Of a DNA stretch of 64,000 nt, positions 1,882 to 39,079 are shown piece after piece. A program made the position numbers and the translations under genes. Position 1 is the first letter of the stretch. Every line of letters begins with the position of its first letter. Below the pieces are notes generated by a model that worked only from the letters and a program-made list of their open reading frames with translations, searched no databases and had not been told where the DNA came from. The DNA lies in NCBI RefSeq assembly GCF_000003815.2, contig NC_049981.1, positions 24,505,675-24,569,674 of the forward strand. The letters run 5' to 3'. The stretch is from Branchiostoma floridae. Its lineage: Eukaryota; Chordata; Leptocardii; Amphioxiformes; Branchiostomatidae.

Positions 1882-2510
1882 CTCTTGTAACTGAAACCTG
1901 TAACTCCCACCCCAAGCAGGTTGAAATCTCCTACCATTATAGTGGCGACAATGGAGAAGATGGCGTCGGCGTAGGCCTGAGGGCGCTCCGCAGGCGCAAG
2001 GTGATGTTCTCTCGCCATGCTGCTGCTCGGGGTTTGCTCTCTTCACACACGCGTCTTCTCTGTTCTTTCCCGTGGATTCCTCTCGTACTAGAAGATACCA
2101 GGTGTCGCTATGACGTAAAACGTGTCACCTCTAGTAAATAGCGCGTGTTCCCTGATACCAGTCACCAGTAGCAAAATATTTGGACCAACAGCTTGTCTCA
2201 GTAGATACTAGTAGGTGTGCCCCCCAAAGACAGGCTGGTGATTGGTCGTTTGAACAGTGAACAAATAGACAAACACATAGACAAACTATATATGTATTCT
2301 GATGTAAGTGACTACTTTACAAGTCAAAAGCACCGCGGATCGACCCCAAGCCAACAGGACCATCCAGTTGTAAACAATTAGCTTTTCACGGCAGTCACTG
2401 AGTCAGGAGATGAACTGATAACGTCTTTTATTTCAGCATAAATCAAACCCTTTCGCACAGGTCAGTGACCGTCACGCAACGGATGAGTCACCTTACTGCA
2501 TGAGTGCTAG
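1882..2510. repeat. Segmental duplication: exon 1 and upstream block, copy near A
   Basis: This segment aligns base for base with 22373-23150. It includes 50 bases of intron, exon 1, the untranslated leader and the upstream region, with shared landmarks such as CTATGACGTAAAA (2108; 22583) and ACCGCGGATCGACC (2332; 22811). The copy near B has about 190 extra bases (22840-23030). Weaker matching resumes on the far side of later insertions, at 3318-3360 and 4450-4500, matching 23150-23270. A TGACGTAA element, resembling a CRE/ATF site, is kept in both copies about 95 bases upstream of the start codon in A and 80 in B. Confidence 0.88.
1935..2018 (-). CDS. TMEM175: TMEM175-like copy A, first coding exon (partial)
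   Basis: An 84-base exon encodes 28 residues starting MAREHHLAPA and ending IFSIVATIM, followed by a GTAGG donor. It covers the cytosolic start and the first pore-lining helix of a TMEM175 channel, with the motif RxxxYAD at residues 12-18. All 84 bases are the same as in exon 1 of copy B (22425-22508). The start codon follows a CAGCAGC leader shared with copy B. Exon 2 would lie to the left and is not in the first 1934 bases, so either the gene continues beyond the window or only the promoter and exon 1 were duplicated. Intron identity to copy B stops about 50 bases past the donor, which fits either reading. Confidence 0.75.
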
Positions 2511-2639
2511 GACATGTAGTTGGTCAATAAATGAAAACCTTATTGTACTTTTTTTATTGGGTTTTCAAATAAACAAAAACAAAGAATAGTTGGGGGACCA
2601 TCCAACAAAATGACAGCAAAAATAACAAAAGTGATTTCA

Positions 2640-4450: not shown

Positions 4451-4894
4451 TAATGGTCAGTGGGAGTTACTAATGCGAGTGGTAGCTACTACATGTAGCA
4501 AGAGGTATAGATAGCGACGGATAACGGCGACCCGCACACAATAGGCGGCGCCACGCTGCTGTTCGTCAACCTTCCAGAATGCCTCAATCGGACAATCCCA
4601 TTGGTGAGGATAGTTTCGTCGACGGCAGTACAACAGTTCAACAATATTGTTGGCTTACCAATATCATTTCAACATTGATCGCATAAAACATGGCCTTTTC
4701 GGGCATATTCATTTCTATGTAAGCCCTTAAACAGGTAAGTCCTATTCTAGATTCTAGATGATACGAAACATAAGTAATCAGGATTAACCCGAGTATGTGG
4801 TTCAAAACAGTAACTTCGTTACGCCTATTTATCCCGGAAGTCGCTTCCTTGCCCCTAGTTTGTCCCACATTCATCGGGTAAATATTTTAGCTCT
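4451..4894. other. No gene recognised
   Basis: The first 50 bases resume the duplicated upstream block (compare 23205-23260). The rest shows no splice-flanked frame or repeat that I can support. Confidence 0.4.
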
Positions 4895-7915: not shown

Positions 7916-8235
7916 TGACAATTGGTATTGTATGAAAAGAACACATACCAAGCACAACCATTACGTTGAATTTCGATCAATAGCTTTACATTCAATCAGA
8001 TCCTGTTTGTTATGACAAGTGACCATTAATCATATATAGCAACATCAGCATCCAATCGATTAACAAGTGACAGAACCATACATTACGTGATCATGTTAAA
8101 AACTACATTTACACAAGTAAAAGAAATAAGGAACGACTACAATCACTACATGTATGATTTCTATTTCAAAAGATTACGTAGATTTGAAAACTTAGTTTGT
8201 ACAATAGGGTCGGCTACATATACCAGCTAAAACAA

Positions 8236-8237
<2 letters not shown>

Positions 8238-8286
<49 letters not shown>

Positions 8287-8322
8287 CAACACCCACACAA
8301 ACACACACACACACACACTAAT
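8238..8322. repeat. (CA)n microsatellite, interrupted
   Basis: Long CA run broken by CAAACACA and CACAACACCCAC units. The open frame crossing it (8197-8436) is an artefact of the run. Confidence 0.95.
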
Positions 8323-8594: not shown

Positions 8595-11500
8595 TTACAA
8601 GGAAGTGGACTCAGATTCGACAGCAGCATTGTCGTGCCCCTCTAGACCCCCTTCCTTTGGTCCACCCGGCTGTCCCTTATAGTCGGAGAGTTCTACGTCG
8701 GTTTCCGGGGATTCCTCTGGATCATGTTCACTCACGCATCTCTGTACAAAGAGTAAGGCAATCTCTGTCTTTTTATCACAATTTTTGTGATCTCATTGCC
8801 CGATATAATTGTCAAACATCCACGAAATCAACATATGAAATCAAAAGATGAAAGAATAGGTTATGTTTGCACATATAACATCGGGAACAGAACAGCACAC
8901 CATTGTTCTATTAAACAACATAGAAAATATTATACCTGAGTCCAGTTACGGACAAGTTTTAGAAGTATGAAGACCGCAATCAAGGCAATCTGTACCTAAA
9001 ATGAAAAATCAGAAAAAGATATTCAAACAATTACCAAAAAAACACAAATACAAGAGTCACGTGTAGACATATTTACGATTCATGAGATGAGATGCAGATC
9101 ATTTTATAAAACTATCACACCATGTGCTCCTGGTCAACGAGTCATTAACTTTGACTTTATATAAACTAACATCTTCTTCGGTTAAAGAACGTAGCTTTTC
9201 ACAACAAGTCTCTGCAAAAGTCGGATTGCGTATCTTTTTTCCCCCGGACAAATGGGAAAAGGACTCCAAACAGGCCAGGAAGCCAGAGGAGGAGGGCATA
9301 AATAGCATAAAACAGCAGATTAATAAAATTATGTATTTTGCCTAAGACGACCGTCTGTCAAACTGTAACGCCCCTAGAATTAGCACATCGTGTTGTAATT
9401 GTAAAGATAACATTTTGTACGAGTGAATCATACCCCATTGATCACTGCAGATGGCACTGGAACGGCGAAGCAGACGCAAAATATCACCAAACTGCAATAC
9501 AAGACATGTTGTTTCACTGTCTGTTACAGTCGATCTGCGGGTATACATACAAAGAAACATATAGTATAGGGCCAGTTTAATTATTGCTTTGAGAAATAAA
9601 CTCACCTGACAATGGGATAGATGAGCAGGTTCAAAAACATGAAAACACAGTCGTGGGTGCCGTGAGCAGACGGATGTAGCAGCTCGGACCTACAGATCGA
9701 TATCGTGGTTTTGAGAAGAAACAAAATGAGAGGACTTTCATGTGTTTGTTTCGCGCTGCTGTAAATATTTTCTACAACGTATACACAGATACACACTAAT
9801 TAATAGTCAGCAGAAAATAAAGCAAATCCCAGACAATTTAAAACAAATAAACAAGCTAGAAAACCGCACATCATACAAAGGATATTATGAAATACCATGA
9901 ATTTGCCTACAGTTAGAATTAGTTACTATGTATAATAATAGGTTGATAGGGCTGACATTTTGAAACAGTGACACTTTTCGTACAAAGTTGACTAGCTAGG
10001 AAGTTATGTATGTACGCCCAACCTAGGAGATCCTGGAATTATTGCAGACTACGCAAAATACTGTACGCTCACTAAGATCGTCGCCAAAAAAAATACACAT
10101 GGAATACTCACTTCTTACACATAGCTGTGATCCATATGGCCAGGAACCAGACACTAGCCAGAAACACCGTGCCACTGTTCAGTTGTACGGCTACTGATGT
10201 ATTGTTGTTTCGCACCTGGTGTATCAAACGGTATCGATATCAAAACAGCCGATCAGATACAATTGTAGCCAGTTAATTGCACAACGGATTACCGCACACT
10301 TGGGATCCTCAAATGTCAAGCCGATGTGGTCCAGCTGGATAACTTCGCATTGCTGCACCACCCGGATAATTGCACGAAGTACGTACACAAATGGGATGCA
10401 CAATCAAACGACTCGCAAAAGTTTGAAACATTTTTTTTCATCGGCTACATTGTAATTATTAATTACATGTACTTGCCAATATCACTGTTTTATCAACGTA
10501 TCTTTGTACACAGGATATTGCGAATACTCACCAAGTGCCCAAACTCTCCCGTTAACTTGAAAACGATTGGGAGAAATCCAGCAAACATGAGTGCCTGTCA
10601 TAAGTAAAGGAAATCATTAAGTTGTGGAATATCAAACGAAAACCTAGGCCCACCCACACCAAATCATTCTGACATCGATGGCTTTTCGGCACCAAAATAC
10701 ACAAAAATCAAGACCATGGCGCGTTCAGAATAAAAAATACAAACAGCCGCCAGGATGTTTAATCTTGACCCAGACCTTGCTCTTCCAATATATTTACGCA
10801 CACAAAATATCATTACAACCTATGAAGATGTTTCTAAATATACTGACCAGAAATGTCAAAAACACAGGCACCTAGAAACGCAGGCGCTCACACACATAAA
10901 CACACGCACGCACACACACATATGATACATGCATAGTTCATGTAAAATAGCAAAACAAATCTAGACTATGGATCTCACCAGTTTGTTGAAGGTCAACAGC
11001 AGCGAGTTCTGTGCACGTATGTGCTGTAGATAGTAGGATAGAAAATCCATATTCACAAATGGAATAGTCATTGTCAAAGGTAGTTATCGTATGAACGTAA
11101 TTGACTCCAAGAGTATAGATAAAAAGCCACGACGAAAGAAATCAAAAGAGAATTATAACCATCCTTACGTAGAACATTGAGTGATGCAGGTACCACAGGA
11201 GACCTGAGGATAAAATGTAGAGCATCGATGAAAATTCTCATCAAACCAAATAGTAGGCGTCATCATCATCAAGTATGTGCCATATGGAAACTTTACTTTG
11301 GGTAGTACCGACTCTATATACGGTTATTGGTAGTAAATTGGCTTATTGATAATGCTACACTGAATTCGATACTGCTTCTGGGCGTCTTCAACACTGGCTA
11401 TACCTTATTACTGACAACGCCATCCTTGTAACTGTCTACGCTACACTCTCTTTGGTACCGCTATATTGTCTTTGGTACTGAACACATTGCGTGTGGTACT

Positions 11501-14500
11501 GACTTCTCTATCCCTGCCCTTGGTACTGAATACACTATCCATGGCATTTAGACTCAACTGTTCTTGTCACTTCTACACTACTTATATGGTACCCTAGCTT
11601 GGTACTTACCTTTTAGCTTGGTACTAAGGACGGTGATATTGATTATACAATAGACAAAAACACGCAGCCTTTAGACTGATTTACGATAACTATCTGTGTA
11701 CGTGTATAAAATGAATAAAGTGGTAACCCACTGTCATATCATACTACTTACAAATTGTCACGAATGTTCCAGCGTAAGACAGGAACACACTGGCATCATG
11801 AGCAAGGGCCTCTGCCAAAGTGCCATGAACGTCTAAAATCCCTTCGGCTGGAACGTTGTTCACACTGGAACATAAGGAAATATAAGGAAATCCTTAGAAA
11901 CATGCAGGGCGATTCATAGCACACAACAATCAACATAGTCCTATAGCTATTAGAAAACTGCTGAAATATATTGCTTGTGTTAATTACAGAGAATAGTATC
12001 TTTTGGGGTGATAATGCTTCGCCTTGTTAGAAAATAATAGAAAATTTCGAAATAGTCTTGCCCTTATAACGTGTATTATCAGATGATTACTAAGCAAGGT
12101 CACCAATGATGTATTAATAGATATATTATACAACTATAGATATCAATAGTTAGTTTATCTTCACCATATTGTGGGGCTTTTAATAGAGCTCAAGGTCACA
12201 ATTCCTAGCAAGTCTTGTCAACCTAATATACTCTTATATACTTATCTGGTGATAGCATGTATTTGTACGTACCAAATGTCCAGGATGATGAGGGTGGCCA
12301 CGATGGCATACACACCGTCACTGAAGCCTTCATAATCAAGACATTGAGGATTACATCATGTTCTTTTAAAACAAGTAGATTATGATCTAAAAATCTTTCA
12401 GTATTGTTGCTTGGCTATATCCCCATGCAAATGTGACAATACGTTTGGGAAGGTACTTGCAACACTGCAGCGACACCTAGCTGAATGCTCCAGAATAACT
12501 CGGTCCCCAAAGCGTCAGCTCATGTAAATACTGTATGTGGTTTTATAACGAGCTTTTTATAAGACAGACAGAAAAATTAGGTAATATTTACCATTGGTCC
12601 TGAAAACATCCGATGTCTCCGAATAGAGACGGGACAGCTTAAATAGACTGGTGCCTTCTTCTACTTTGCCTGTAAAACCAAAAGACATATATAAAACTCG
12701 AGGTAACGTAATTTACCGACTAGTTTGCTTCCAATTAGCTTCTAAAATATTGTAACAAAAAATGTGTCTACGTATTTTGATATGAAAACTGATACATGTA
12801 TATCATGAATTACCACAATCAAAGCCAACTACTTACCTTTAGCACATTTTATGATGGCATCCACAATTAAGAAAATGATTGGTTTCAGTACTGCCAGAAC
12901 AAGAAGTGCCCATGCCTGAAAAAATATAATGAGTTGTGTTAAGTTAAAGGTTTTTCATGAATAATTATCTCTGTACAATTCAATAAAATCTTTTCATTAT
13001 TTATTTTCTGCTGGATTCAGTCTCCAAGCTCTTGCTAGAGGATGTTCTAAGAGTGTAATGTTACTGTAGACGGTTAACAACCCCATTATTTTGAAATGTT
13101 TTTTTATATATCTTTGGCAATAATTTCATCTAATAAAAATTGTGTATCTATACATGTAGCTGTAGAAGGCCTTACGAAATTCAGTGTGCTTTTGTTAAAA
13201 ATGAATGTTTTACCCTTCAACTGAAATAACTGAAACAGTTGTAAGTATTGTTATTGGGTTGGCCGACTACTCACTCTTTGCAGCCAGGGTCTGAATTGCG
13301 AGGAGCTTACAATAGGCGGGGCTAAATCGCAAGGGTCTGGAGCGAGCTGCCGTTCGGCGCCACTCAGGTGACCTCAATACGACTGTCGCAAGTGTCTGGA
13401 GCGAGCTGCCATTCGGCGCCACTCAGGTGACCTCAATACGACAGTAATTGCCCCAGGTGCGGCCAAGGTACTGTAGGTTTTGAACCACTCACACCACACC
13501 ATCGCACATATGGCGGGTTCTTTGACGTGCCCGGGGTGTGGCTCTCCCCAGACAAGTATCATGTTCGCCTTCTTTGAAAACAACAGGGGATTTATCTATA
13601 CGGAAAGGCAGATCTAATTCGATTTCAACTAATAATTATAAATTGATATATTAGGACTTACGACTTCGATGGATCCATAACTAACAGGAATGGTGATGAG
13701 GTAAATGATCGGCCTGATCAACACCTTGATGGTAGCGCGTGTCCGTTGTAATTTCTAAACATAAAAGTTTAGACAGGTAAATAAAGTTATATTGTCTTTG
13801 TAATCATAATTCATGAAAAGGTGGACGCCGACTACCGCGTTGCAAGGATGTCATTTGGTCGCCTCTATGAAAATTCAAATGATAATCGACAAATCATTAG
13901 GTTACATTACGTTGATGCCATCAAAATTACATAGTTAATTCAGACACAACTTCAAACATGTTTTAAAATAAGATGAAACATTTAATGCATATTCAACAGA
14001 TCTTTCTGCATGTTGACTGTATAAAAATGATTTCATGATCCCTCTACCCCCCAAAAAACTACATGTAGTTGCAACATGCTTTAGCCTGGTATCCAGCCGT
14101 ATTATGGCTCCCGAGTACCTTCTGTCCTCTCCGCAAATACTTGGAGAGAACAGAAGCAAAGGAATAGGTTTGGAACTACAGACAATATCTAATATTTCAC
14201 TACTTTACGTACGCATGCGCAGCGACATTCATTATAGGTAACATGAAGACTCCTAAGTTCAAGATAAACCAATCGAGACATTGAGACAATCTAGACAGTG
14301 GTAAAAACAAGAAACATTAAGAATTTACTTGTATGGTTCTCATTTCAACCATTGTCTCGATTTGCATATCATCATCATCATCATCACAGTCCTTCTCGCC
14401 CTGACAAACGCTCTGTTTACCGCCGATGGACCGTCTGTGAGCAACAAGGCCAGCTAGACTTCTGCAGGGCTTTCCGGCGTCTGACTTCCAGGGTTTACAG

Positions 14501-17500
14501 TTTGCATAACAATGTCAGGAAATGCTTTGTTTGTCTTGGGGGTCAGAGATCTTCACCTGTGATATATTACCCACAATGCATTTCGCTGTGCATCATGCGT
14601 ACTTACAATCGTGACCGTCCATATCAGATTGGACTTACCATTTCCTCCTTCCCTTGCTGGACAAACTCCTTTTTCAGCAGGTTGGGTCTTGAATAAGCAT
14701 GCAACAGTATGGCCAGCTAAATACACACAAAAGGGATAATAAGTATATAATGATTGACATCATTGCTATATCAAAGCCTGGATTTTTTCTTCTGTTTATG
14801 TATTGATATGGTCAACGAAATTGTTGTTCTTTCAGTTTGAACAGCGCATTTTGAAGTTTATCAGCCATCAGAAAAAATAGTATCTTTATAAATAACAAAG
14901 CAATTCCGTAGAATCAATTTTTCTAAGGCGGTTAAAGTCATATATTACTAGTAGGTATTTAGGTAGGTAGGTATTTGTCATAAGACGTTGAACACTTTGG
15001 TGCAAATGTAAATAAATGTACAACTGTGTGACATGCACCATGAAGAAGCCCTGAATAGCCACGCAGCTACAGAACAGCACCACGGATAGCGGTTCCCTGG
15101 GATGCTCGGCGAACATCAGAAACTGAAAGAGAGAAGAAACTCTAAATATTACATTATGGCACTATTGTGCATAATGATCATACTCGAGCGATTTAGAGGT
15201 ACATGATATACAGAAAATTTAACTTTTAAAAATGATAACCCAATCGAGCTAGACATTACAGATCTCCTAATCTTTGCTCTCCCGAAAATATCTCGACAGT
15301 TCATAATTGTCTTCATCAAAATCAAACGATGACGCTAACCTGGACATGGCCTATAATTCTTAAATAAGTATTAAAAAAATTGATGATAGGATAGAAAGCT
15401 AACACATTATATTACACAAGTAGACTAGTATATCTGGTTTGTAAAAAAAAGTTAGTATTTTTTTTTACATGCATATGGTGGAATCTAGCGGTTATAAGTC
15501 AAACTGCAGGCTGAGCCGGCTCAACCAATCCTGATATGAACAGGTTATATAAGTTTGGCCATCTGTTTACAAACACTACGAATCATTTGAGAAACCGTGC
15601 TGAAAATGTTTGTTTCGGAGAACTACAAACATGGAAAGTACTCACCGCATATGGCACAAAGGTTGTCATCATCAAGACACCCTAGAAAAACACCAGAGAC
15701 AAGATACAGTAAGCTAGATGTCGTGGAAATCCGCATAACATTCACGTTGTTGTGGACTCTATACTTTGATTTTAATGTGTCAGCTGTACATGAAGACCAA
15801 CTGAAATTTCATCAAAAAGTTATTTAATCAAGACAACTAAGGAGATTCCTAAGTTCGTATCATGTCGACGAGTACAAAATGTACATGTTAAATTGACAAG
15901 AGAAGAGAATTGCGTGCCGGACATTAGAGAAATATGTATTGTAGAAGTAATGTATACATTTATATGCGCTCTTACCAGGTTCAGAAGCACAATAGTCTCA
16001 TTAACTTTCTCTATCATCCGGAAAATCCTGTAAAAAGGACAGGAACAATTCGTGTTGATTACCTAGATTTTGTACAAAAACAATACATCCGCAGCATGTT
16101 TAAAAAAAATACTTTTATACCATCTATATGCAACGTACAGGCTGAATATGTTCTTGGCATTTAACGAGGCATGTGCACTTCTTTTCCCCTCGTTAGTATG
16201 TATTCAGACGCGTAAAGCTTAAAAAAGGGATAGTACATTAGAATTTATATTTTATTATTTCTGGAATGTCCTCAATATGGTTTCTAATGAGTATCTCTTC
16301 CTATTTTATTTAATCACTTCATTTTATAGACATTACAACCTAACCAAATGTTCGCTTTGTTCGTCTGTTTGTTCGTTTGCTTATTTAGCACAAGAGATAA
16401 CGACAAACAAGCGGAATAAGACTTTATACAGGCCTTCACTCTGTCATATTTTACCTAAATATTAACCTATCTTAGATCATCAAAATTGTAGGCATGGCCT
16501 GTAATAAAAAAAAATTAGCTGACAGCCGATCAGAGACTGAATGATCTATTTGAGTAAAGCTGATTCTCTGAATGGCTGACAGCTGGTTTGAGCCACGAGA
16601 ACAGACCACGGGTTATATAGGGGCTGTTTAATAGAGAAACGTATATAAGTAGATAGATATGCCTTCCGCACAACATACCATGCGTGCAAGTCCCATGAAG
16701 AGGAGACCAGAAAGAACGATATCGCGTAGATCACCAGTTTGAACCACATCTCTCCTAAACCCGTCAGCAGGTTCTGTAAAGCAACCATACATTAGAACTT
16801 CATGATTGTCGGTGAACTGTAAAAGCAATATGCATGATATGCTTTACATATCGAAGGGATACCCGCGTCATGGCATTTAACATTAGCTATTGAATGATAA
16901 TGAAGTTTAACGGGTATAAATTATTGAGTTTTTATATATTGAAGGACACGGGTATAGTTTTCGAGAGTAAACTGGGAAGGGAAATAGGTATTCCTTTTAA
17001 AGAGAGTAAACTGCAGATATCGGAGGATACGGGTATAGTTTAGTACTATAATAGTATGCTTCATATAAGGTGAGTTCTACCTCTTCATCAGCAATCTCCT
17101 TTACAGCCTCTCCCGACAGGGGCAGTATCTGTGAACAAGAGAGTAAGTTGAGTTAAACAAACAGAGGCTGCATGGTCTCATTAATACTGCAAAATACGTC
17201 TACAATTGGACCGGAAGCTGATACATGGTGTCGTCCCGGTTCAACAAGGGTTGATGGGTCGTCCCTGTAAATTCCCTGAGGCCTCCTTACTATGTATCAG
17301 CAAACCTAAACAATGTTACATCTATTTTAGTCACGTAGCTATTATCTTGTAACTCTAACATGTAGGTCCTGTCCACTCTTATCAAATTTCCCATAAAAAA
17401 ACTCCGATAAATTTGATTAACTATGTCCAAACTATAGTATACTATGTCTTCCAGGTTACATAAAATTGGTTGAAATATATGTGTAAAACATTGCCTGTAA

Positions 17501-17565
17501 CGTTTAAGGACTAATTACTTGAATGAAAAATGGGTGCTACTTTCAGAAGTAGAGTTCTCGCGCGC

Positions 17566-17614
<49 letters not shown>

Positions 17615-23947: not shown

Positions 23948-23969
23948 TTTAATATTGTTTTTGGCATTT

Positions 23970-24197: not shown

Positions 24198-27100
24198 TTA
24201 CACTGCTGTAGTCGTTGCAGTTCCTTCATGCATCGCACGAAAAGACCCAGCATTGGTTGGAATCTCCGACAGTTGTTGGTTCTTGTCCATGGAGATTTCT
24301 GCCTCGCCCTTTTCCAAACGTTTCTGGAGTGGTAAGAAAAAACAACCGGCATGAAAAATAAATTTGGACACGTTAAAACTATACAGCGAGTTATTCAGAC
24401 AATCGAAATAAACGTTGTTGCCAAGGGCACAACAATGGGATCCGTCAGGGATTCGAACTCCGTTCCTCCAGGCTTTTAGTCAACTACCCTAAACCACAAT
24501 GAATAATACCGTAAGACCGATGTGTTGACGATTCTTTTTTTTCGATTTTCCCAAATTGTCATCAAGATATTTCTATTTATCTCCAAGATTACCCGAGGGC
24601 ATATGTACCTGGAATAAGTAACGAAGTGAGTATATTTGTACCTGAGCCACGTTACGCAACAGCTTCATGAGAATGAACACTCCGATCATGCCGATCTGAA
24701 CCTGTGAGAAAATAGAATCAGGTTAGCTTACGTACGGGTAACTGTTAGATGAAGATTTTTTTTTACGTTGCACGTTCATATGAAGATCATGAAGAATACT
24801 AAAAGTCCATCTTGTGTAAAACATGATATTTAGCATGACTTTATGTATTGGAGTCCGGTTACAATCATCGTAAGATCACAAACTGAGGGCATTCTTGCGA
24901 CAACAGGCCACATGTACAAATTTAATGTCTTGTGGAGAAAAACGGTGTCTTAGATCCTTTCAAACTATTGATTCTGCCACAGGGTTGCTTTAAAATCCTA
25001 CGACAACAAAATCGTAGGACAACCAACGATCGTATAGAAAGCTGTGAGGTATAACTGTCTTACTCATACCCAGTTGATCACGTCGGAATTGATGGGAACA
25101 ATGAAGCACAGACAGAAGATCACCAAGCTAAGAAAGAAAGACAAAACAGATATTATATTTTCTTCATCCTTAACGAGAAACGTAAAATCTTGAAATCATG
25201 ATAGTGTCCATTCCATCGTTCTTTTTTTTTGTATTGAATTTAAGTCATCTTAGTTTGTGCATAAATTACATACTTATCTCATGTATCACTTCATCATATC
25301 TCTATTCTGAGCCACATCACTTGCATTATTTATTCAACGTTCAAGTTTGATGTCGTATACTAGTAATTCATCCATTAATCCATATATACAATAGTAGCCC
25401 CGGTGTATCTATGGTTATGTATTCGTTACTGACCTGGTAACAGGGTATATAGACAGATGTGTGATCATGAATACGTTGGACATTGTGTTGTGGGCCGAAG
25501 GATGGAGAAGTTCGGACCTACGGAAAATTTAGACACATAACATAGCCCGTTTGTTGACAAACAAATGCTGCTTGAAAAGGGTTATACACAAATAACTGTG
25601 CGTTGGAATAGAAGAAAATCACGTTTTGACCAACACGTCGGATCTACTGTCAATTTCATAAGATCTTGAAACAAATTTTCTCTATAGCTAGAGTTATTAA
25701 GCAGACATTTCACTGGACTGCACCAAATGCATTGCGCCCGCCCGCCGCCTGAATTTGCGATTTTTTAATGTTACAAATTTGCAAATGGGCCCAAAGCGGC
25801 GCAATTCATATATTCCATAGCATTTTTATTGATTTTAATGATCAATGGTTTTTAATCTATTAGTTTATTCATTCCAAACGCTCATCTCGGATCTATACAC
25901 GTACATAGAGAGACCACAAAGGGAAATTGACACTAATTCGCAAAGTTAATAAATTCCCCGTTGTCATTTGGTGCAGTTCAGTTAGACACATGTATTACGA
26001 ATAGAATAAGGAGCAGCTGATTACTCACTTCTTACAGCTGGCTACAATCCACATGGCCAGCAGCCAGACGCTAGCCAGGAAGACTACAGCACTGTTCACC
26101 TGCACTGCTAGAGACGAGTTACCCGTACCCACCTAAAATATGAACACAGCGCAAATCATAGATATAGCGAGGCGAACTTGATAACATTTAACTTAACTAC
26201 GATGGTATGTTGAATATATTGTGAAGTGGTGTCCATTCATCAAACGTTCATTATCAAACCTCTATGGTGAAATTGATTAAATTGCATTTCCATGTGTATA
26301 TGTTATTGCTGTACTAAGACAGACACCCTAACAATTGTTCAAGGAGAATACAGAATGTGAAGATGGACCTCTTTTCCGAACTGTCCTGTCAGCTTAAACA
26401 CGATCGGCAGGTACCCAGCAAACAAGAGTGCCTACAAACAAACACGTAACACTTGTAAGCAACACAAAAGTAAGCAACTTGAAATCGATGTAATGTTTAT
26501 TTGTTTCAGTTTATCACAGAGTGAAGGGGACAGGTCCGAACGACAGGTGTAATAGCTGTGCTTACACGTGTAATACACGTCGTGCAATAGCAACTAGTAT
26601 CAATTGCTCTTTAACCATGCAATCCTTTTTTCCATTCCATTTCGACAAAGTGCATCTTGAATCAATGGTGAATAAGAATTACTGTGATGGTACACATTGA
26701 GACAGCTTAACACAATATAGTGAAGCCATGCGTTTAAAAATCGTCACAGTTAAGACTTAAGTGATTGAATGGCATCAAAAAGACAAGAACACGGATCACC
26801 ATTTTATTACAGGTCAAAACAATGGAGTTCTGGGCCCGGATATGCTGAAATTTTAAAGGAAGACATTGTCAGTCAAATCAACACTTGAGTCATGAAAACA
26901 GTAACATTATTAAATTGCTGAGTATCAATTCGTAAATTTGATACAGCGTAATGAGAATACAATATGTATTGTATGATATATACTTACGCGAAACATAGTG
27001 TGGTGTAGGTACCATAGAAGACCTGGGGTTTAGGAAGAAAAGATATATGAATAAAGAAGCAGACATGTTTTAAAAGATACAAAGTTGACAACAACAGTTT

Positions 27101-30100
27101 GATACTCACAAACAGTTACAAAGGTTCCGACATACGACAGGAACACCGGTGCATCATTGGATAGAGCATTTACCACACTTCCGTGCATCTGCACATGCGC
27201 AGCGGTCGGAACATTGTTCACACTGCAAAAATCATAAAACAATTTACAACAAAATTTCAAACATTATTTTCATTGATTTTAAGCAGGCTCTCTCATTCGT
27301 AATTCGTAATCGTCATTCATAATCGAAGTCGTTGTCCATGACACGTCGTAAGGATTTGAGGTCAAAGGTCAAACTGCTCTTTGCACGAAATGAAAAGTTG
27401 TACAGAAGTGACAAAACACAAGATATAGATCTTACATCTAGATGATCTGGATGTTTTTGACTCGCTATACCTCTATAAGCAAATGCTGTTTTCCCATTAA
27501 GTAACTTTCAAAATGTTTCTAAAAGTGTGACGCCAAAAACATTGACAAATTGATGATAGTGTTTTGTCCATACCATATGTCCAAAATGATGAGGGTGGCA
27601 ACTATAGAATAAACGCCGTCACTGAAACCTGAAAATAACATGTAAGCAAGTCATTAATTAGTACAACTGTATTGGCATGCAATGTTCTCCAGCTATCAGT
27701 GCAGAGAAATTCTGTCTATAAACAAAATCAAAGTCTATGATCTGTGATTACCTCCATGAAAAAATGGAGGTATAGTTTTGGGTGTGTCTGTCTGTGTGTG
27801 TGTCTGTGTGTGTGTCTGTTTGTGTTTCCAGATGTTTGTGGTCAGCATAACTTTAGAACCTCTTGATGGACTACGATGATATTTGGTATGTGGGTAGGGG
27901 TTGGGCAGACGAAAGGTTAAGGTCAATTTTGGGCCCCCTGGTGTTTGACCTTGGTACTGCAGCGCAACTTCCGGTTTTGCTATCTCGGTCTTCTGAACAT
28001 GCTATGGTCAAGATTTTTGAGTATTAGATAGCTCTTGTGCTCAGAAAAAGATGATATAAGTTTGGGCTTCCTAGCGTCTAGTTTTGGGATAGCAGGGGCA
28101 TTTTTGTCAAAAACTGACGAGGATAACTCAAGAAGGGAACAACGGATTTTCATGATTTTTGGTATGTAGGTACCTTAGACAATGTTGTACAAGATATAAT
28201 ACTAATTATGCAAAATAGGAGTACATTTGCATAATTAATGAGCATATTCTATCATAGCAGTTTTTTTTTAATGTATCTCTTGTCCCGTACATGATATGGT
28301 CGTGATATTTGCGTGGTAGATAGGTTTTAGCGTCATGACAAGGTGAGGCAAGTTTCAGTCCCCTTACATTCAACTGTAGAACTGCAGGGGCGTTTTTGTC
28401 AAGAGACTCCAAAGAGGATAACTGCAGAAAGGAACGGCGGATTGCCTGCATTTTAGGTATGCAGGTAGCTTAGGCAAAGATGTTCATAATGATATGCATT
28501 TTATGCAAATAAGGACTTAATTTGCATAATTAATGAGGAAATTGTATGATTCCATTGTTCGCAATAACTGGACTTCGATAAATGTAACACTTGTTAATTA
28601 TAATCGGTGGAACATATCCAGATATCAAATATGCAAATAAGGAACTTATTTGCATAATTTATACAGAAATTGCAAAACAACTTAATGATTAATGATTTGA
28701 ATTGGGAATTTTACTTGTGACATGTGTACTGTACGTTATTCAATGATGAACAATACCATGCATAAATCATGTTAATGTTATTTCTTACTGTAGGCTGGTA
28801 CTTTTGAAATGTAAGGAGGCATACCTGTCTGACAAGTACTTTGGTTCATGATTTCTTTTTCAAAAGTATAAGACTTCCGCTCGCATGCTTACATTAAGTA
28901 CATGTGAAACAGACAAAAAGATGAACTAGAAAGGCCGACATTTGCTTAAGAGCAAATACAGCATATTTCAGCCATACCCCTTCCCACGCAACATTGGACT
29001 GTTCCAAATCACCCCTGCGCAAAAATGGAACATCCTCTTACATTATCCCCCAAAGTGGACTGGTATTGTGAATTGATTCCCGGTAAAAACAGAGCTTGCT
29101 TCTATTTTTCAGAAAATGACAATAATCACACCTTCCATTCAGAAAATTTTCATCATGACTGAAAATTGTTGAATGACTTCATGTAATGTCATTAACAATT
29201 TTCAGTACGATAACTAGGTGTAAGTTTAAAAAAGTATAAGCTCCTTGTGATGTGGGTACATTTATTATTGCAGTGAACTTTTTTTATTCAAGTAGGGCAT
29301 ACGATTTAATAATTATCAAGCAGGTGCAGGTACTGTAGGAGCGTTTGTTTTCTTCAAGCTGTAAAACTGTTAAACTGTTTTACTTTGTATGCAATCAGCC
29401 ATCGAGCCTATTCTTATTTTAGTTTAACAACTTCCTGCCAGACCCGGAAGATACGATTGAACCTTGTTCGAGGATTTATTTTCGTCTGTCTGGTCAGTCT
29501 GTTCATACCCTGGCACTGAGAGTGTTTTATTGGGCTGAAACTCTGGCAGTTTAAAGTTACTCACAATTTAAATGTTTAAAGTTTATGTCAAACAACAACA
29601 GCACTAGGAAATGTGGCCACTATAGACAGGTGGTCACTATAGAGAAAATGCTGATCTATTGACTAGGAGCCATACGTTACACATGATTTCAGTACACTGA
29701 TCATTAATCATACAAATATTGCACAGGTAAGCCAATTGTTTAGATGTACAATTAAGTTCAAATAATTCTGAAGAGAAATATTGATGAGAAAATAATCATT
29801 CTCGCCACTGTCTAACTTATAATTACGTATCAAAACTAAACGCAGATTTTCTAACTAACGCACCTTTCGCCGACTTCATCAAAGGACCGCCGGCTATCAA
29901 TCAAACATGGCTGTTGATTAGACTTAGAGTTTCAAACAGTCATGTGCTGTGTGCCAGTTTACAGCGAACTTCATGCTACGTGATGTTTTACATTGCTTGG
30001 ACCTTCTTTCCTACAGCGGTACTTCTACAAAATATTTAGACTGTAAAACTGAGTCCCACATGTTTTATAGAATAGAATTTGACGCAGAACAGCGTTTTTT

Positions 30101-33100
30101 GCTGGGTATTTTTCTTGAAACATGTCCGTGGGAATATCAGCGAGGCGGCGACGTAGGGATATCAGACCGTCAACAAAAGTCGCACGGCGGCTAACGGCGC
30201 AGCGAAGATACTAGCGCTATAAATAAGCGCTTCAACTAAGGATGGCAACCCGTACAATATTTTTGTATACTGTTGAGCTAGCCTAAGTAAAGTTTGTTGT
30301 TTATGAGGTTTTAGTTGTCTTTGAAGCTTTGACCCGAAATATTTTAAAGTCAAACTGCTGAAGAGAAGTAAGTGACTGCTACGATTATCGTAGATATGGC
30401 CCTAAAAAAACTGATAAAAGAAGCCTTCTCAATAGTCTAAAATGCAAGAGCTTCCGGGGGGCTTCGCCCACCTGGGTCCCCCCCACAGTGGCCCTGCCCC
30501 TGGACCCCGCCAGGGACATTCGGCGGCCCCCGGACCCCTGTCCGACGCTTTGAAAAAATCCTGGCGAGAAGTCTGTACGGCCTGAGTCTTCAAGTTAACG
30601 TATTGTGTGGTCCCGCTTATGAATATTAATTAGCCTTCGCTTTCCTCTTGGCTGATTGGCTGAACCATTAATTGAATTAACTCTTCCTGCCGGCTAGACG
30701 CAGGTGCAAATGTCGGCTCTGTGGGGTGAACGTCCGAAAGGTCATGGCATGGAGAACGAAAGAAAACCAATTTCCCCTAAAAGAAGTGCTGTAATTAAGC
30801 CTTTTACAGTACTTTATGCCAAAAATTTTACTTGGATCATTTTACCAACTATCTTATGCCTATCTATACCAAATGTTACTCATACCAGGGTACAGGGGTG
30901 CAAAATATACCGTTATAAGACGTAACGTAACAGCGCAGCGAAAATACCATCGCTAGCGTTTCAACTTCGGATAACAAGATATAAGTACTGTTGAACTCAG
31001 TAACGTTAAAGTTTGTTTTTAGTTGCCTTTGACGGTTTGACCTGAAATAGTGTTACGCTAAACTCCTGAAGAGAAGTTAAGTGACTGCTGCGATTATCAT
31101 AGATATGCCCCTAAGAACTGATACAATATAAAGCCTTCTGAATAGTCTAAAATGCGAGAGCCTTAGGCGGGCTTCGCTCCCCCTGGCGGGAACACTGCTA
31201 TCTACGGGATCATGAGGCCCCGCTTATGAATATTAATTAGCCTTTGGCCTCCTCTTCGCTGATTGGCTAGGTCTTTGATTCAATTAACTCTCCGGCTGAC
31301 GCGCACAGGTGTGGCTCTGTGCGGGGTCACGGAAGGTCACGTCAGGAGGCCAAAAGAAAACAAATTTCCCCTCAGAAAAGTGCCAAAATTAATCATTTTA
31401 AAGTTGTTTATGTCAAAAATTTTATTTGAATCTTGTTACCAAGTATCTAATGCCTATCTATACCAAATTTCAGGTCATTTGATTGTAATACCAGGGTACA
31501 GGAGCCAAAAGTGTCCTTTTGTGGTCAAAAATTGGCCAAAAATTGGCCAAAAATCGCAAAAATAAACATTTTGTTGCACTGTATACCAAAAGTGTTATTG
31601 AATTTATATGAAGGGATTATCAAGGCACATCTCTGTCAAATTTCAGCTCATTCGGTTGCAATACCAAGGTACAGGAGCCAAAAGTGTCCTTTTTTGGTCA
31701 AAAATTGGTAAAAAAATTGCAAAAATAAGCATTTTGCTGTACTGTACACCAAAAGTGTTATTGAATTTATATGGGGGCATTATCAAGGCACATCTCTGTC
31801 AAATCTCAGCTCATTTGGTTGTAATACCAGGGTACAGGGGCTAAAAGTGTCCTTTTTTGGTCAAAAATTGGTCAAAAATCGCAAAAATAAGCATTTTGTT
31901 GTACTGTACACCAAAAGTGTTATCGAATTTATATGGGGGCATTATCAAGGCACATCTCTGTCAAATTTCAGCTCATTTGGTTGTAATACCAGGGTACAGG
32001 GGGCCCAAATATACAGTTTTGGTCTTAAGATGACCAAAAAACCTTAATAAAATCATTTAAGAGACAGATATGGAAAAAATGAAAAAAACGTCCGAGGGTA
32101 TTGGCCCACTCTACCCTTGTACCAAATTTCAAGTCATTCGGTTGAGGAACAACGGAGATACCGTGTTCTGAAGATTTGACAGGAGAAAGAAAGAAAGAAA
32201 GAAAGAAACATTACGAATACAATATATTTCACCATACCTATGGTATGGCTGAAATATAAATATGGCGTATCCAGGATACTAGTATCCCATTGTCCATTGT
32301 TCACACGTAATTTGCATATGATAGAATTCTCCCGCGGAAAACGGACCGAAAGAAAAATGGCGGACATCAAGGTGGCGGTGTTGTTTATCGCTGACTTTTA
32401 CAAGATATTCGAGAGCAGCAAAGTTTATTAGGTAAGTAAATTTCACCATTTTAAGTGTTAGGTGTTTATTAGTGTGTAACACTGATTCTTAGCATAGCAA
32501 CAAGATGGGAGGTAATTTATTTGACTGTACAGGGTAAATAGCTCGATATCTAATCACTTACAAGAGAGTCTGGAAGTTTCCGCTGTCTCAGACACCAAGC
32601 GAGACGGCCTCATCACCCTCAGTCCATACCTTGTCTTCCCTTTAAAGAAAAACATGAAGGCCCCATGATAATGCCTGTATTGTGAGTGAATGCCATTCCT
32701 TTATATGCATTTTCAACAATAAAACACATCTTGTAAATACTACTATTTTTTAAGCAAAAATGACAAAATACTTGTCATTCTTGGAATGACATGGACATGG
32801 AAGGCCATGACATGACCATGCACTGAGGAACAAAGAATATAAACAAACAGACCTCTGACACAGTGATACACTGCTTCTCCAATCTGACGAAGAACCGGCT
32901 CTAACATCATCAGCAGAAGAAAAGCCCATGCCTTTATGTATGTAGGGAGAGAGACAGAAAGATATGAGATACCCACGTAGGGTTTTAGCATAGTCCGAAT
33001 AAGAGTTAGATGTACATATAGCTATCTGTTTTGAATTCAAACCAGGTGGTTACAGCATTCGCACAACTTTTCTCATCAGTCATATTAAATGTCACCTAAG

Positions 33101-36100
33101 TAAGTACTATCACTGGTCACATTGTTTGTGACCTAAGTACTATACTAGTAACTTGTATCACTCTGCGACAAAGGGCATTCAGACTGGAATGCCAGTCTGG
33201 AACAGTCTGGAGCCAAATCACAATAATGTCCTTATTGATTTGGTAACTGCCTATAAGATACCATCAGGACATTATATCACTATTCACAATACTATCTACA
33301 CAGAAAAGAAGAATTACTAGTGCTGAGAGAACGTTTATGATAGAATAACAAAGTACTTTGAACGACTTAAGCTTATATTGCATAATTGTTTAGCCCTGGT
33401 ACTTTTATTTCAAATGCTGTACTTACGGTTTCAATCGATCCTATGCTGACAAGAGCTGCTATGACGGCTATGATAGGTTTGATCATCACCATTAGTAAAG
33501 CTCGGCGTCGTTTAGAGCTCTGGAAAATATCAAACAACACGTAAACTAAACTAAAGGGACTAAATCCTACAATAACCATTTTCTGTCCCAAGTAATATCT
33601 AGCACAGAAACATCACGACCTTAGCATGTCCAGAACACACACGTTTTACTGCAGCACCATAGCAAGCCGCTTGGAGGCCCATCATCAAAATTGACTTTTG
33701 CTTGACCTATCACTGCCCAATTACAAAGTACCTTTAAGATCTAACGTTTCCTATCGCTTCTTGAGTTATATTGTCTAAACACGAGCCATATTGAATCACT
33801 GAACTCACTGAAATGTTGCTTTTCTGATTGTGTATTTTATTGGACATACCAGATTTCCATCCTCCGCCTCTTCTTCGTTGAGAAGGTTTTGTCTGCTGTA
33901 AACCTGCCAGACAATAGCAGCCTGAGCAAAAAAAAATATCGGCATAATGAGAATTTAGGCTCCTTTAAGTTTAAGGAGGACATGATATCTCTAGCATCTG
34001 TGCTGAAAGTCAATCGTTGCAATCTTTGACTTTTAAAGAAAGCTGTGGTCTAAGAGAACAATCATGTTAAAGCATGAGTTATTTGTCACATATACTTTCG
34101 AGACACATACCTTGAAAACGCCAACAACAGCGACGCAACAGCAGAACAAGACTATGGCGGCTGGCTCCCGCGGGTACTCAGCGATCATCAGGAACTACAA
34201 ACAGACGGAACTTTAAAAACAATGTAACCAGAATTGTGCTGTATAAATTTAGTATGTGAAGAAATTAACTGTTCTCCAATTTCAAAATTGAACTGTTCAA
34301 AAATTTCAACTGACTCGCTCAGTTGCAGTGACCACATGCCTTTCTGTACGTGTGACGTCAGCAATGGGTCAAATGTTGTTGAAAATCGAAATCGCCACCC
34401 TACCGGTTTAGAAGAATGGGTGAGTCATTTAAATTCCTATAAGCCTAATTTCTGAGTTGGAAAAAATTCCTTTTCTCATGTATTTCACCTCAGATGAACT
34501 TTCATTCTTACACGGTTGTTAGTAAAATTTGTAATGGGAAATAAACATGCACAGAGTGTAATATTGTAGTTACATATATGGGAATGCCATGTACGTAGTT
34601 ACTTGATTGGTGCTTCAATCTTCTTAAGTACATGTCATGAATTAAGTTAAGAGATATGATAACAGAAGGCACTATGATACTCACGGCAAACGGGAGGAAT
34701 GTCACAACCATCAGTACTCCCTGTAAAAAAATGAATGCTACAATCAGCTAAAATGTCAGTCAATTTATACTTTAGGAGAGTATATTTTTTTACACATCAC
34801 AACACTCCACTGCCAAAACAAAACTCTGCCTGACAGAATCATTAAGAAGGGGGAGGAAATAATCGATACCCGTAAGCAGAAAGACTCTTACCGACCGTTA
34901 CACTCAGTCTTGTGATCGTGTTCAAGAACGTTAGAATATGTACGTACCAGGTTCAGCAGCACGATCGTTTCGTTGACTTTCTCGATGTAGCGAAATACCC
35001 TAAGATGGACGATACATGCCTTCTTTTAAGTAAGTGACATATCAGGTGTTTATCAACAAAACAGTATCATTTTTGATAAAGCGCGTGCAGTGTGTAAAGA
35101 CGTCGACGAACGCATGCACAAAAGCATTCTTCACAAATAAAGTGAAGAATGCTTTGGTTACCCTTCCCACCCCACCCCTCCCCTTTCCACTATGGCTGCG
35201 ATCGCGCTGTGACCTGCTGAGAGACTTAAGATTTGACATATTGCTCTACTATCGCGAGTTCCCTAGAAAGTTGTTTCCCTTTCTTTCACGCTTTGTGTCT
35301 TTTACTGTTCTTAAGATAATTCTTTTACATCTCATAGCATACTAAAGTTATAAAATCCAATTCTGGTCGCTAGTCGTTCACCGTATTAGTTGGAAAGGAA
35401 CCTATCCGGGGGAAGGGGTACCTAGTAACAAATGTGACAGCTCTCTTTCGGACTAACCTGCTGTGTGTATCCCATGTAGAGCTCACTAGAATAAATGCCA
35501 GCGCGTAGATCAGCAGTTTGAACCATATCTTCAGTAAACCGGCTAGTAAGTCCTGAAAGAAAACAGAGCCTATTTCATTTTCCAGTTTTCTCCAAGCTTT
35601 GCTTGGTCAGTTAATTAATCAAGTAAAATTATGTAATTTTTTCGTAACGTCACTTATTTGGTTACGGTCAACATTCATAAGATATGTTTTATTTTACAAC
35701 TTTTCATTTTGATGAAGGTTGTTGCCATATAGCCGGCCAGACGACGTTGACCAATCAGAAGGCTCTCATTTCATATGAACCATGACACCGTTATACCATT
35801 TAAGTGTCCCGAGAAGGGTTTTTAATGAATTTCTAGGTTTGTAATAAAAATTTGGAGGCCCTGGAAGGCACTGCCAACCCAGGACTACACAGAGTAACCT
35901 GAAACTGAACCGAGGCTGTGAGACTATTTGAAGCTGTCGAGACGTAAAGAGCCGAATAATAGAAATCTATATCTATACACTAGTATTCTATCCGGCACCG
36001 CAATCAGGAGATTTGACAATATTTAAGCCTTATGTACCAAAACGACAAAATTAATGCAAATTTTCAAAATGCATTTCTCAGAAAGGTGACAAATGAATTT

Positions 36101-39079
36101 ACAAGTATTGTATCAAATTATCTATGCGCTAAACAGGAATTTTATGTCTCATACGGGCTAGTTCAGACAGCCTGTATGAGGATAACATGACCCGCCTATT
36201 CTTCAGTGTGTATAGCGCCATAAGGCCTGGACATTTGCTATGACTACCAAATAAATCCACCGAGTAGTTAGCAAAATGTCCAAGAATTATGAAACTATAT
36301 ACTAAGCACACCTTGGAAAAAGCGACTCATTAATCCTTTGTTATCTCTGAAAGGTTAAAGGGGTTAATAATGAAGATAAGATTATAGTCATTAGATTATA
36401 GGCAAGACTTTATCTCATCGACTGTCATCACAAAAGACGACGTCAGGAGACAGTCTAATGTAGTTATCGGCGCGGCGGTTACTGTAGGAGTAGCCTAATC
36501 ACTTAAGGCCCCCTCTCACTTGACGTGCGGCACGCTTGCGGCATTGCTGCGTTCGTTCACTGCGTCACGGTTTTGTTATTTTCTCCGATTTGTTATAATT
36601 CAGATATTGCGCAATACGTCTAAGTGTGACATAGAAGACCACAAAATACACATCAAGTAAGAAAATTCGTTCTTTATCTCTGAAATTCGTTGAGCATCTT
36701 CCGAACGCAGCAATGCCGCAAGCGTGCCGCACGTCAAGTGAGAGGGGGCCTTTAGTCTCAAGGCCTCTCAGTTCTTGTAGGACGACAGCGGCGTGGAAAT
36801 TAATCTAATTAGCAATAGTTGCTCTTTTATTACCAATTTATTTACTTCGCGAAGTATAGCTGACGAAGTATATTTGTCACGTTACGTCTTGTCAAGGAAG
36901 ATCACTTGAATTATTGTACCCGGTTGATGCACTGACGATGGTAATTAAAAGTAGACGTACAGTATCGGTGTTTCATTGCATCCTGTGGCTAACTCGTCAG
37001 AAGGGTATTTCGTACATATACAAGGTGTCTACTATGATGGCATAATCTCAGCATCTTGCCCCAATTAAGTAAGATCATTAGGTATAAAATATCCTCCTTA
37101 CATGTTCAGTGCTTCTAAAATAAACAAGAAAGAAGAAATCCAAAACAAATCCTTTCAACTTCAGCTTTGCCTTATCACAATATGAGACAGTCTCAGAAAA
37201 TTGAATTTTACGTCTGAAGGCACTTCATCTTCAACATAAATTATTCAGGCTCAACCATAATTACGTTTGCGCACACGTTTCCTCAAGGATAGTCTAGAAT
37301 AAACTGACAATTGTTGAGAGCAACGTAACATTACTTACGAGAAAGCAAATATACACGTAGATGAAAGAGGATCACCTGGTCAATTAAAAAGATATACAAA
37401 ACTAGTGGTTTGTACTACCTTGCTCCCAGCAACCCCTTGTACCGCCTGACCGGACAATGGTAGAATCTGTAACGACATATGAAAAATGTTTGTTGATGCT
37501 AAGGAAGAATATTCTAAAGTAGGTTTAAGACATGAATGCGTCTAAGATCAAGGGAAAAGACATGAAAGAGGGAAAACAATTTAAGACATGATAAGAGCAT
37601 GATGCGTCTCCCCACTAATTTTAGAAACGCAATTCGAGAACCAAGTTCGGGTTAACTAGCTTTTTAGAGTAGCTGTTATGTGCGAGATACAAAAATGATG
37701 AATGATGATGACGGCTTATTGGTGATGAAATAAACATTGTTGCACTGTGTATGCCCGTAATACAATACCATTGTAATTCCTATAATGCGTATATACAAGC
37801 CTAAGTCAAGTTTATATCTATGTGCACAAAATATCCCAAAAGATGTGATTAGATCTGTTTTAACATTTCTCAATTCGACTAACGTATCAATGGTTATAAT
37901 CAGAACTATGGAAATTGCAAAATGGTTCCGTCTTTTATCCGAATCAATATCTAATGCATGTGACAATTAGTAATCTTTAGTGCTCAACACACGTTAATCT
38001 GCAATGGGCTTTTACGGGTGCAGCGCATTTATGGCCGACTAATAAAAGTCAGCACGCAATTATGAATCATTTACGAAACAGTCTTGTTTTGAACCTTTTA
38101 CTGTCGCTTTTCATGAAATCATACGTTAGTCATCTTTAATTCGTTGTTTTGATCGGAATTTTAAATAAAGCTATAGAAAGGTCAGAACAGGCTCGTTAGA
38201 ATTTTAAATTAAAAGTAGGAAAAGGTCATGGCCGACATGAGTCATTGACTGTAAGGCGATTTACCAGCTATCTAGGTCTTTGTGAGTGATGGATGGACGA
38301 CATTCGGGACGCAGGCAGTAAACAGTTAATGGTCGATTAACCCACATTTGATGGAAAAAACAGTGATAATGGAATGTTGGCAATCCGTGGCCTACTAAGG
38401 ATAATATGGCTTATGCTGTTAATATTACTTGGACTGGAGACCTGAAAAGGCGACATGGACATCATCATGAACATTCATATAAATATCTAGTGTATAGACT
38501 CTTCATTCATACAGGTATCTAGCCTTGCATAAAAAATCTACTTAAGGGCGCGGTCACATACGTCGCAGCCATGAATGCATGTGTCTTGCAAAGTTCAGCT
38601 ATCTTGCTACAAAAGGTGGTTGGTTCTGTGACAGCCTGCTTAAAATACTGTGCACAGATGTCAACAAACAACATAATGAGGTACCACACGTTTCCGATGC
38701 CACCATTGATAGTGATACCTGTTTAGCCTGGACATTACCTTACGTATACCAAGGTGTAAACGCGTACCGAGAATAGAGTGTAGCCTGATTAGGATTGCAT
38801 TCAGGATTAGCATCTAGCAGCTTATATTTCCTTTGCACTGCGACCGCTGAGTGACAAAACATTTTGCAGGTCACCCAACAAATTTCTTCTGATAAAGAAA
38901 TCGTTGTCTTTTGAATAATCAAAGGTCACACAAGTGCAATTTGATCCCTCAATGGTCGCTCAACGATCGCTGTCTAGTGGAAAGACGGACCTTACCATGA
39001 TAGTTGCCACTATGGCGAAGATGGCGTCGCTGTAAGCTAGGGATCTCTCAGAAGGGTTGATGTGGTCTTCCCTCGCCAT
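24198..39079 (-). CDS. TMEM175: TMEM175-like lysosomal/endosomal cation channel, copy C, 20 exons
   Basis: Spliced minus-strand gene. Coding exons: 39079-38996, 37466-37419, 35552-35458, 34999-34948, 34720-34685, 34194-34111, 33921-33850, 33519-33427, 32931-32853, 32639-32562, 27628-27574, 27222-27110, 27022-26988, 26844-26800, 26431-26369, 26132-26029, 25517-25434, 25127-25070, 24701-24642, 24323-24198. They sum to 1464 bases, 487 residues. Exon lengths equal those of copy B except exon 7 (72 versus 78) and exon 20 (126 versus 147). Twelve helices in two repeats: R12-x3-YSD18 with AIVATIMILPL, and R238-x3-FSD244 with SIVATLIILDI. LLWYLHHTMF follows helix 8. The loop encoded by exon 10 is diverged from B, keeping SRL-x-SET. 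Donors of exons 9, 14 and 15 are weak (GTCTGT, GTGATC, GTCCAT), yet the frame is intact. A TATA box lies upstream. Intron 10 (about 4.9 kb) is filled with transposon remnants. Confidence 0.88.
24438..24507 (-). repeat. tRNA-derived short repeat (Pol III-like boxes)
   Basis: On the minus strand, TGGTTTAGGGTAGTTGACTA resembles an A box and GAGTTCGAATCCC is a near-perfect B box about 30 bases on. The piece does not fold into a full cloverleaf with paired acceptor ends by eye, so it is a SINE head or tRNA pseudogene. It lies in the last intron of copy C. Confidence 0.5.
27746..28830 (-). mobile_element. Transposon-like repeat, family 1, right copy
   Basis: Inverted counterpart of 3363-4450 with the same order of landmarks. 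It starts TTACCTCCATGAAAAAATGG (a hairpin of CCTCCAT with ATGGAGG), runs through a GT-rich stretch and GTACTGCAGCGCAACTTCC, and carries the two 280-base subunits. The far end is degraded near 28800-28830. It lies in intron 10 of copy C. No protein-coding capacity beyond the repeat-derived frame at 28206-28451. Confidence 0.8.
28925..30275 (+). mobile_element. Transposon-like repeat, family 2, right copy
   Basis: Inverted counterpart of 6520-7915, with the same landmark phrases and the same 35-residue frame start (within 29949-30194), including FYRIEFDAEQRF. Its right end overlaps the first unit of a tandem duplication (from 30185), so the original element may be longer than the shared part. 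Confidence 0.75.
30185..31500. repeat. Tandem duplication of a unit of about 700 bases
   Basis: 30185-30925 and 30925-31500 share, in order, CGCAGCGAA(G/A)ATAC, CTGAAGAGAAGT, AGTGACTGCT(A/G)CGATTATC, GGGCTTCGC, GCTTATGAATATTAATTAGC and AATTTCCCCT. The first unit carries an extra GC-rich stretch (30455-30560, rich in CCCC and GGCC). Both lie in copy C intron 10 beside the family 2 element. Confidence 0.8.
31495..32045. repeat. 163-base tandem repeat, about 3.5 copies
   Basis: Phrases like CATTTTG(T/C)TG(T/C)ACTGTA(T/C)ACC at 31567, 31730 and 31893 give a period of 163 bases. Each unit also has CAAGGCACATCTCTGTCAAA and TTGGTCAAAAATTGG. The three overlapping open frames (31263-32047) arise because the period shifts the frame; they are not genes. 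Confidence 0.92.
32046..32256. repeat. Repeat tail with (GAAA)n and terminal hairpin
   Basis: After the 163-base array comes a phrase ending GGAACAACGGAGATACCGTG, then a GAAA run (about 32188-32208), then a hairpin of CCATACC with GGTATGG near 32232-32251. This looks like the 3' tail of a retroposed element. With the array upstream it may form one element together with the tandem duplication. Confidence 0.6.
33605..33790 (+). repeat. Diverged fragment of repeat family 1
   Basis: CACGACCTTAGCATGTCCAG, then CTGCAGCACCATAGCAAGCC, then CTTCTTGAGTTATATTGTCT follow the order seen at 4195-4365 in the family 1 element. It lies in the intron between exons 7 and 8 of copy C. Confidence 0.6.
36503..36754. 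mobile_element. MITE with 50-base perfect inverted ends and TTA target duplication
   Basis: A 246-base element (36506-36751) begins AGGCCCCCTCTCACTTGACG and ends with its reverse complement. About 50 terminal bases are perfectly inverted, through CATTGCTGCGTTCG. Both sides carry TTA (36503-36505 and 36752-36754). A 3-base TWA target duplication is characteristic of the PIF/Harbinger superfamily, so this is a nonautonomous relative by inference. No coding capacity. It lies between exons 2 and 3 of copy C. Confidence 0.88.

Follow-up and report, generated by a model that had tools for sequence, protein, structure and literature searches.

Human has a single TMEM175 gene. How many does a lancelet have, how did they arise, and would their products be gated in the same way? 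These questions are raised by a 64,000-nucleotide stretch of Branchiostoma floridae DNA (the window, C3:24505675-24569674, where C3 is contig NC_049981.1), in which TMEM175-like exons recur along the minus strand. The analysis finds four such copies, called D, A, B and C in left-to-right order, lying head-to-tail on this strand over about 60 kb (C3:24484625-24544753), and a fifth gene, E, on the same contig 7.0 Mb away (C3:17479880-17487951). On the evidence set out below, we consider it probable that D-A-B-C are four apparently intact TMEM175 genes that arose by repeated local duplication, and that they most likely encode K+ leak channels of internal membranes which lack the human type of gating by luminal acid.

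A head-to-tail array of TMEM175-like genes

Judged by their sequences, the membership of the array proteins in the TMEM175 family is secure. The Pfam model PF06736 (TMEM175) scores D at 123.1, A at 130.4, B at 132 and C at 137.9 bits, all four above the curated cut-off of 25, and matches two stretches in each protein, as in the two-repeat animal form, with both repeats aligned. In a search of the PDB, where human TMEM175 is represented by one sequence in 18 entries (including 6w8n, 6wc9 and 6wca), the human protein was matched over nearly its full length by C at 248.3 bits and by D at 208.9 bits. Bacterial TMEM175 (5vre), which unlike the array proteins has 203 residues and one repeat, was matched at 46.5 bits by C, along repeat I, where the arginine, FSD and gate isoleucine positions align, and at 42.5 bits by D; the available text of PMC7141809 describes prokaryotic forms as tetramers. 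A single exon of gene E scores 28.3 bits with PF06736.

A preliminary description of the window had placed a head-to-tail, minus-strand cluster of at least three TMEM175-like genes between positions 1935 and 39079, with B and C complete and matching in all 20 exon phases and 18 of 20 exon lengths, and had surmised that the cluster might continue past the left edge. Its coordinates prove exact, as 1935 is the 3' end of copy A exon 1 and 39079 belongs to the start codon of copy C; the account of B and C is borne out by the splice models, and the left flank, read over 70 kb, completed copy A and added copy D. Here, negative numbers are window coordinates extended into this flank, and a C3 position equals 24505674 plus the window position. 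The genes consist of series of short exons, which were located by pairwise comparison of minus-strand frames; splice sites were then picked by hand.

Copy B (8595..22508, minus strand) is a complete gene encoding 496 amino acids in 20 exons, at 22508-22425, 17128-17081, 16773-16679, 16027-15976, 15681-15646, 15122-15039, 14716-14639, 13754-13662, 12915-12837, 12669-12592, 12327-12273, 11864-11752, 11203-11169, 11023-10979, 10594-10532, 10215-10112, 9689-9606, 9491-9434, 8995-8936 and 8741-8595. Copy C (24198..39079, minus strand) is likewise complete and encodes 487 amino acids in 20 exons, at 39079-38996, 37466-37419, 35552-35458, 34999-34948, 34720-34685, 34194-34111, 33921-33850, 33519-33427, 32931-32853, 32639-32562, 27628-27574, 27222-27110, 27022-26988, 26844-26800, 26431-26369, 26132-26029, 25517-25434, 25127-25070, 24701-24642 and 24323-24198. 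An AG acceptor and a GT donor flank 19 of 19 introns in each gene, and the two exons of unequal length are exon 7 (78 bp in B, 72 in C) and exon 20 (147 and 126). Copy A reaches into the window with exon 1 (1935..2018, minus strand; 84 bp, phase 0, start codon at 2018), and its exons 2-20 lie left of the window, from -1148 to -9846. The whole gene, 20 exons from 2018 to -9846 (C3:24495828-24507692), encodes 496 amino acids and equals B in 20 of 20 exon lengths. Beyond A lies copy D (-11125 to -21049), of which 19 exons were found, its last exon being tentative; 15 of the 19 have lengths common to all four copies. The agreement in phase, at 20 of 20 exons between B and C and at 19 of 19 between D and the other array copies, is partly built in, because the exon limits were set manually, guided by the resemblance of the copies at protein level and by AG/GT sites; the open frame through all 20 exons is not a product of that choice. 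As modelled, none of the four frames contains a stop, and splicing follows AG/GT throughout except for one GC donor in D.

Across 174 kb around the window, protein C gave 41 tblastn matches (E <= 1e-3), every one of them on the minus strand, and none on the same DNA reversed, which rules out chance motif matches. No further copies beside the array or gene E were found by tblastn with the five genes and the human protein (E <= 0.01) in 337 kb, with one small locus overlapping another; the DNA covered included some 90 kb to the left of the window, 60 kb to its right and 120 kb around E. In the whole genome (513 Mb, 431 contigs), protein B as query at E <= 1 gave at least 50 matches from 51 candidates, all scored, such genome-wide counts being lower bounds; all 50 belong to the array, to gene E or to one piece of contig C192. 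A Pfam search of the genome at E <= 0.001 returned one exon only, belonging to E, which indicates that single exons score very little.

A 100-N assembly gap (19717..19816) lies within intron 1 of copy B, so that exon 1 of B is joined to the other 19 exons only across it. Tandem repeats of about 183 bp (18947-19705) end right beside this gap and may have caused it. Downstream of gene B, a minisatellite repeating roughly every 51 bp occupies 4893-5783. Finally, two sets of inverted copies, 83% and 90% identical and possibly a mobile element, are found downstream of B (3440-4450 and 6521-7916) and in intron 10 of C (27747-28776 and 28925-30280), where they fill about half of its 4.9 kb.

Gate, interaction network and acid sensor

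Residue numbers are those of human TMEM175, in a numbering that reproduces the residues printed in the available text of PMC7141809 and PMC11792109. The gate isoleucines Ile46 and Ile271 are kept in all five genes, and so are Thr49, Thr274, Leu275, Leu278, Arg35, Asp41, Arg260, Ser265, Asp266 and Asp279. The same holds for the tryptophans and histidines of transmembrane helices TM2 and TM8 and the asparagines of TM3 and TM9 (W92, H95, N113, W324, H327, H328 and N345); the kinds of network residue and their helices are those named in PMC7141809, and these numbers were read from the alignment. The roles in gate and interaction network are likewise taken from that paper, and with these residues retained in five of five genes, the gate would be intact, as would the network said to anchor the dimer. 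In the two RxxxFSD motifs, arginine and aspartate are kept in both repeats of every gene, as in human TMEM175; the repeat I motif reads YSD in D, C and E and YAD in A and B, in which the array differs from the human protein, and the repeat II motif reads FSD in A, B and C and YSD in D and E.

The pore-helix exons of the two complete genes in the window, all on the minus strand, illustrate this pattern. In B, the repeat I exon (RPQAYADAIFSIVATIM, 22425..22508) keeps Ile46 and carries the YAD motif, and the repeat II exon (FSDGVYAIVATLIILDI, 12273..12327) keeps Ile271 and is followed by the exon that encodes residue 282, Val for Glu. In C, the repeat I exon (38996..39079) encodes Ala45 and Ile46, and the repeat II exon (27574..27628) encodes Ser270 and Ile271. 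By homology with the human channel, the pore would be made by a pair of subunits, with the first helix of each repeat as its lining and isoleucines 46 and 271 as the ring that closes it. If the array genes are expressed and their products assemble in this way, these may well act as cation (K+) leak channels of an internal membrane. Their 'organellar' location would be carried over from human TMEM175, an endolysosomal K+/H+ channel.

Where the array departs from the human channel is the luminal acid sensor. The mechanism proposed for human TMEM175 in PMC11792109 is that protonated His57 comes together with Asp279 and Glu282 when luminal pH is low, which would open the gate and increase H+ conductance. 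All four array copies instead have Gly57, Asp279 and Val282, whereas gene E has His57, Asp279 and Glu282. Moreover, A, B and C contain no histidine in the stretch aligned to human residues 52-78. Since all four copies lack His57 and Glu282, both of which E has, luminal acid would probably not open the array channels as it does the human one.

Several observations weigh against this picture of four conducting, acid-insensitive channels. D has a histidine seven residues after position 57 and a glutamate at 283, which might serve instead of the human pair. Furthermore, the bacterial channel 5vre has Val in the column of residue 57, and a histidine three residues on, so that the array copies have not necessarily lost His57. 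Other points bear on conduction itself. Position 45 is Ser in D, A, B and E and Ala in C, and the human S45A channel was folded and gave no measurable current, as reported in PMC7141809; A and B have Ala40 and not Ser in the repeat I motif, reading YAD for FSD; and D has a GC donor, after exon 7, and an unsettled last coding exon. These features would suit an explanation in which one or more copies no longer conduct and are decayed or repurposed proteins. We regard this as unlikely, given that all four modelled frames are free of stops and that A and B are under purifying selection (see below). As for C, its Ser270, at the matching place in repeat II, may restore the hydroxyl beside the gate, though 5vre has Ala at the place of residue 45; the hydroxyl is hence not universally needed, and the exchange in C may mean nothing.

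Divergence of the copies and the haplotype question

The copies are of very different ages. Between A and B, which are 94.8% identical, nonsynonymous divergence (dN) is 0.024, synonymous divergence (dS) is 0.118 and dN/dS is 0.20 (Fisher p 2.8e-10 on rounded counts); this pair is under purifying selection. Every other pair has a dS above 2 or saturated, and C or D share 53.0-58.7% identity with the other array copies. D and C split long ago from the A/B line; A and B parted recently. In this latter pair, exons 1 and 2 show 0 differences in 132 sites (exon 1 at 1935-2018 in A and 22425-22508 in B; exon 2 at 17081-17128 in B, with that of A left of the window), and the whole coding sequence shows 65 in 1491, a distribution that could reflect gene conversion or strong constraint.

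Could the copies be haplotypes of one gene joined by misassembly, the case that the preliminary description had itself raised against a true cluster? The idea draws on the high heterozygosity of lancelets, 3.2-4.2% in the sequenced species covered by the available text of PMC12862219, on the 100-N gap within B and on contig C192 (376 kb). This contig holds, beside a run of N, a 1.36-kb piece with exons 15-17 (C192:127602-128962) that is 97.7% identical to A, so that unmerged pieces may exist in the assembly. Against it, D, C and the A/B line stand at dS above 2, far past allelic divergence, and D, A and C contain no runs of N. Even the recent pair fits the idea poorly. Next to the dS between A and B, 20.7% of noncoding sites differ over the gene alignment (79% identity), a figure inflated because part of intron 1 is not truly aligned; local alignments within the gene, exons included, are 78-86% identical. 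Apart from one 49-bp match further upstream, this similarity dies away some 0.5-0.6 kb outside the gene on either side, where that of haplotypes would continue. The piece on C192, in turn, is 83.8% identical to B. It is best taken as an allele of A, or could be a very recent partial copy, and B is plainly neither. The haplotype artefact was therefore rejected for the array and is unlikely for A and B, given dS, the extent of the A-B similarity and the C192 piece; overall, we give it very little credence.

Gene E and the ancestry of the array

The preliminary description had interpreted the cluster as a lineage-specific expansion set against the single human gene. The tandem multiplication stands, but the array is not a straightforward counterpart of human TMEM175, since gene E is closer. 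E was modelled with 18 exons, and its protein has 475 amino acids counting the stop, that is, 474 residues. It belongs to the same family as the array, and its phases match and 10 of its 18 exon lengths equal those of C (C exons 4 and 5 being taken as one), an agreement that is partly built in because phase and length served as filters for several E exons. Unlike the array, E lacks introns between exons 4 and 5 and between exons 12 and 13: two of its exons each span two array exons (4+5, 52 + 36 = 88 bp, and 12+13), so the array has two introns absent from E. Identity to human TMEM175 is 40.8% for E and 30.3-32.6% for the array proteins; between the array and E it is 31.2-34.4%.

In a tree of twelve single repeats (LG+G4), read as rooted between repeats I and II and including human as the one outside species, E groups with human (support 78.8/74 for repeat I and 86.3/79 for repeat II), and the array stands apart at 96.9/94 and 95.4/98. 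On this grouping, the split between E and the array would predate that between lancelets and vertebrates. E is the likelier orthologue of human TMEM175. The array as direct orthologue, a notion given up once E was found, gives way to a diverged paralogous group, as E is closer to the human protein. Dating by an unrooted six-protein tree was also tried and left the order within the array unsettled (support 41.1/53).

Synteny did not serve as proof of the orthology of E, as no Pfam family near E or the array helped. The scan (E <= 1e-5) covered 92 of 117 listed open reading frames (ORFs) around E and 74 of 167 around the array, and was uninformative because most exons are too short. It returned six families near E (two glutamate-receptor families, mucin WxxW, SUEL lectin, M1 peptidase and reverse transcriptase) and three near the array (rhodopsin-type receptor, CARD and Band 7). 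In the latter neighbourhood, one ORF matches CARD and, weakly, B-box, and others are of the rhodopsin-type receptor kind, at L005:7416-8303 (+), L025:3945-5396 (-) and L028:8936-9601 (-); Band 7 is matched by one further ORF of the 74. For the right third of the window (39080-64000), a scan of six long ORFs, each taken by itself, yielded no Pfam match at E <= 1e-4.

The array may thus be older than the lancelet-vertebrate split, or it may be a fast-evolving expansion from E, and the data lean to the first. The alternative to an ancient paralogue that the human lineage lost, namely that the array arose within the lancelet lineage by duplication of E followed by fast evolution, nevertheless has a substantial chance of being right, if somewhat below even. 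A tree forced to join E with the array loses 5.7 log units under LG+G4 and 4.5 under LG+C20+G4, and the AU test does not reject it (p 0.105 and 0.151). E shares its contig and its exon phases with the array, the trees include one outside species only, and the repeat rooting is weakened by the free LG+C20+G4 tree, in which the repeat I root falls inside the array and one branch sits at the length ceiling. What speaks against an origin from E is the best LG+G4 tree, which joins E to human in both repeats, together with the 40.8% identity of E to human as against 31-34% to the array. A further and more speculative proposal, which we rate as doubtful, would make the array a second, ancient TMEM175 lineage, lost by the human lineage and gated differently, with the acid sensor absent and, in C, the pore hydroxyl moved from repeat I to repeat II. 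If it were true, early chordates would have had an acid-gated H+/K+ TMEM175, represented by human and E, alongside an acid-blind K+ channel that was multiplied in lancelets.

Tandem arrays are common in lancelets. Enlarged gene families are known there, such as the 16 GFP-like genes described in the available text of PMC2679011; among the matches listed, no description of TMEM175 copies in lancelets was found in the open-licence PMC literature. What sets the present array apart is not tandem duplication, which is ordinary, but that all four copies lack two acid-sensor residues and yet retain the gate, in a genome whose gene E bears the sensor. The risk of Parkinson's disease has been linked to mutations in TMEM175, a channel able to conduct K+ or H+ (PMC11792109). 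The five genes of this genome share the gate, and four of them lack the proposed acid sensor; they would form a ready set for testing which residues give acid gating, with gene E as a matching sensor-bearing control from the same animal. Copy C would be a natural experiment on whether either repeat can supply the pore hydroxyl.

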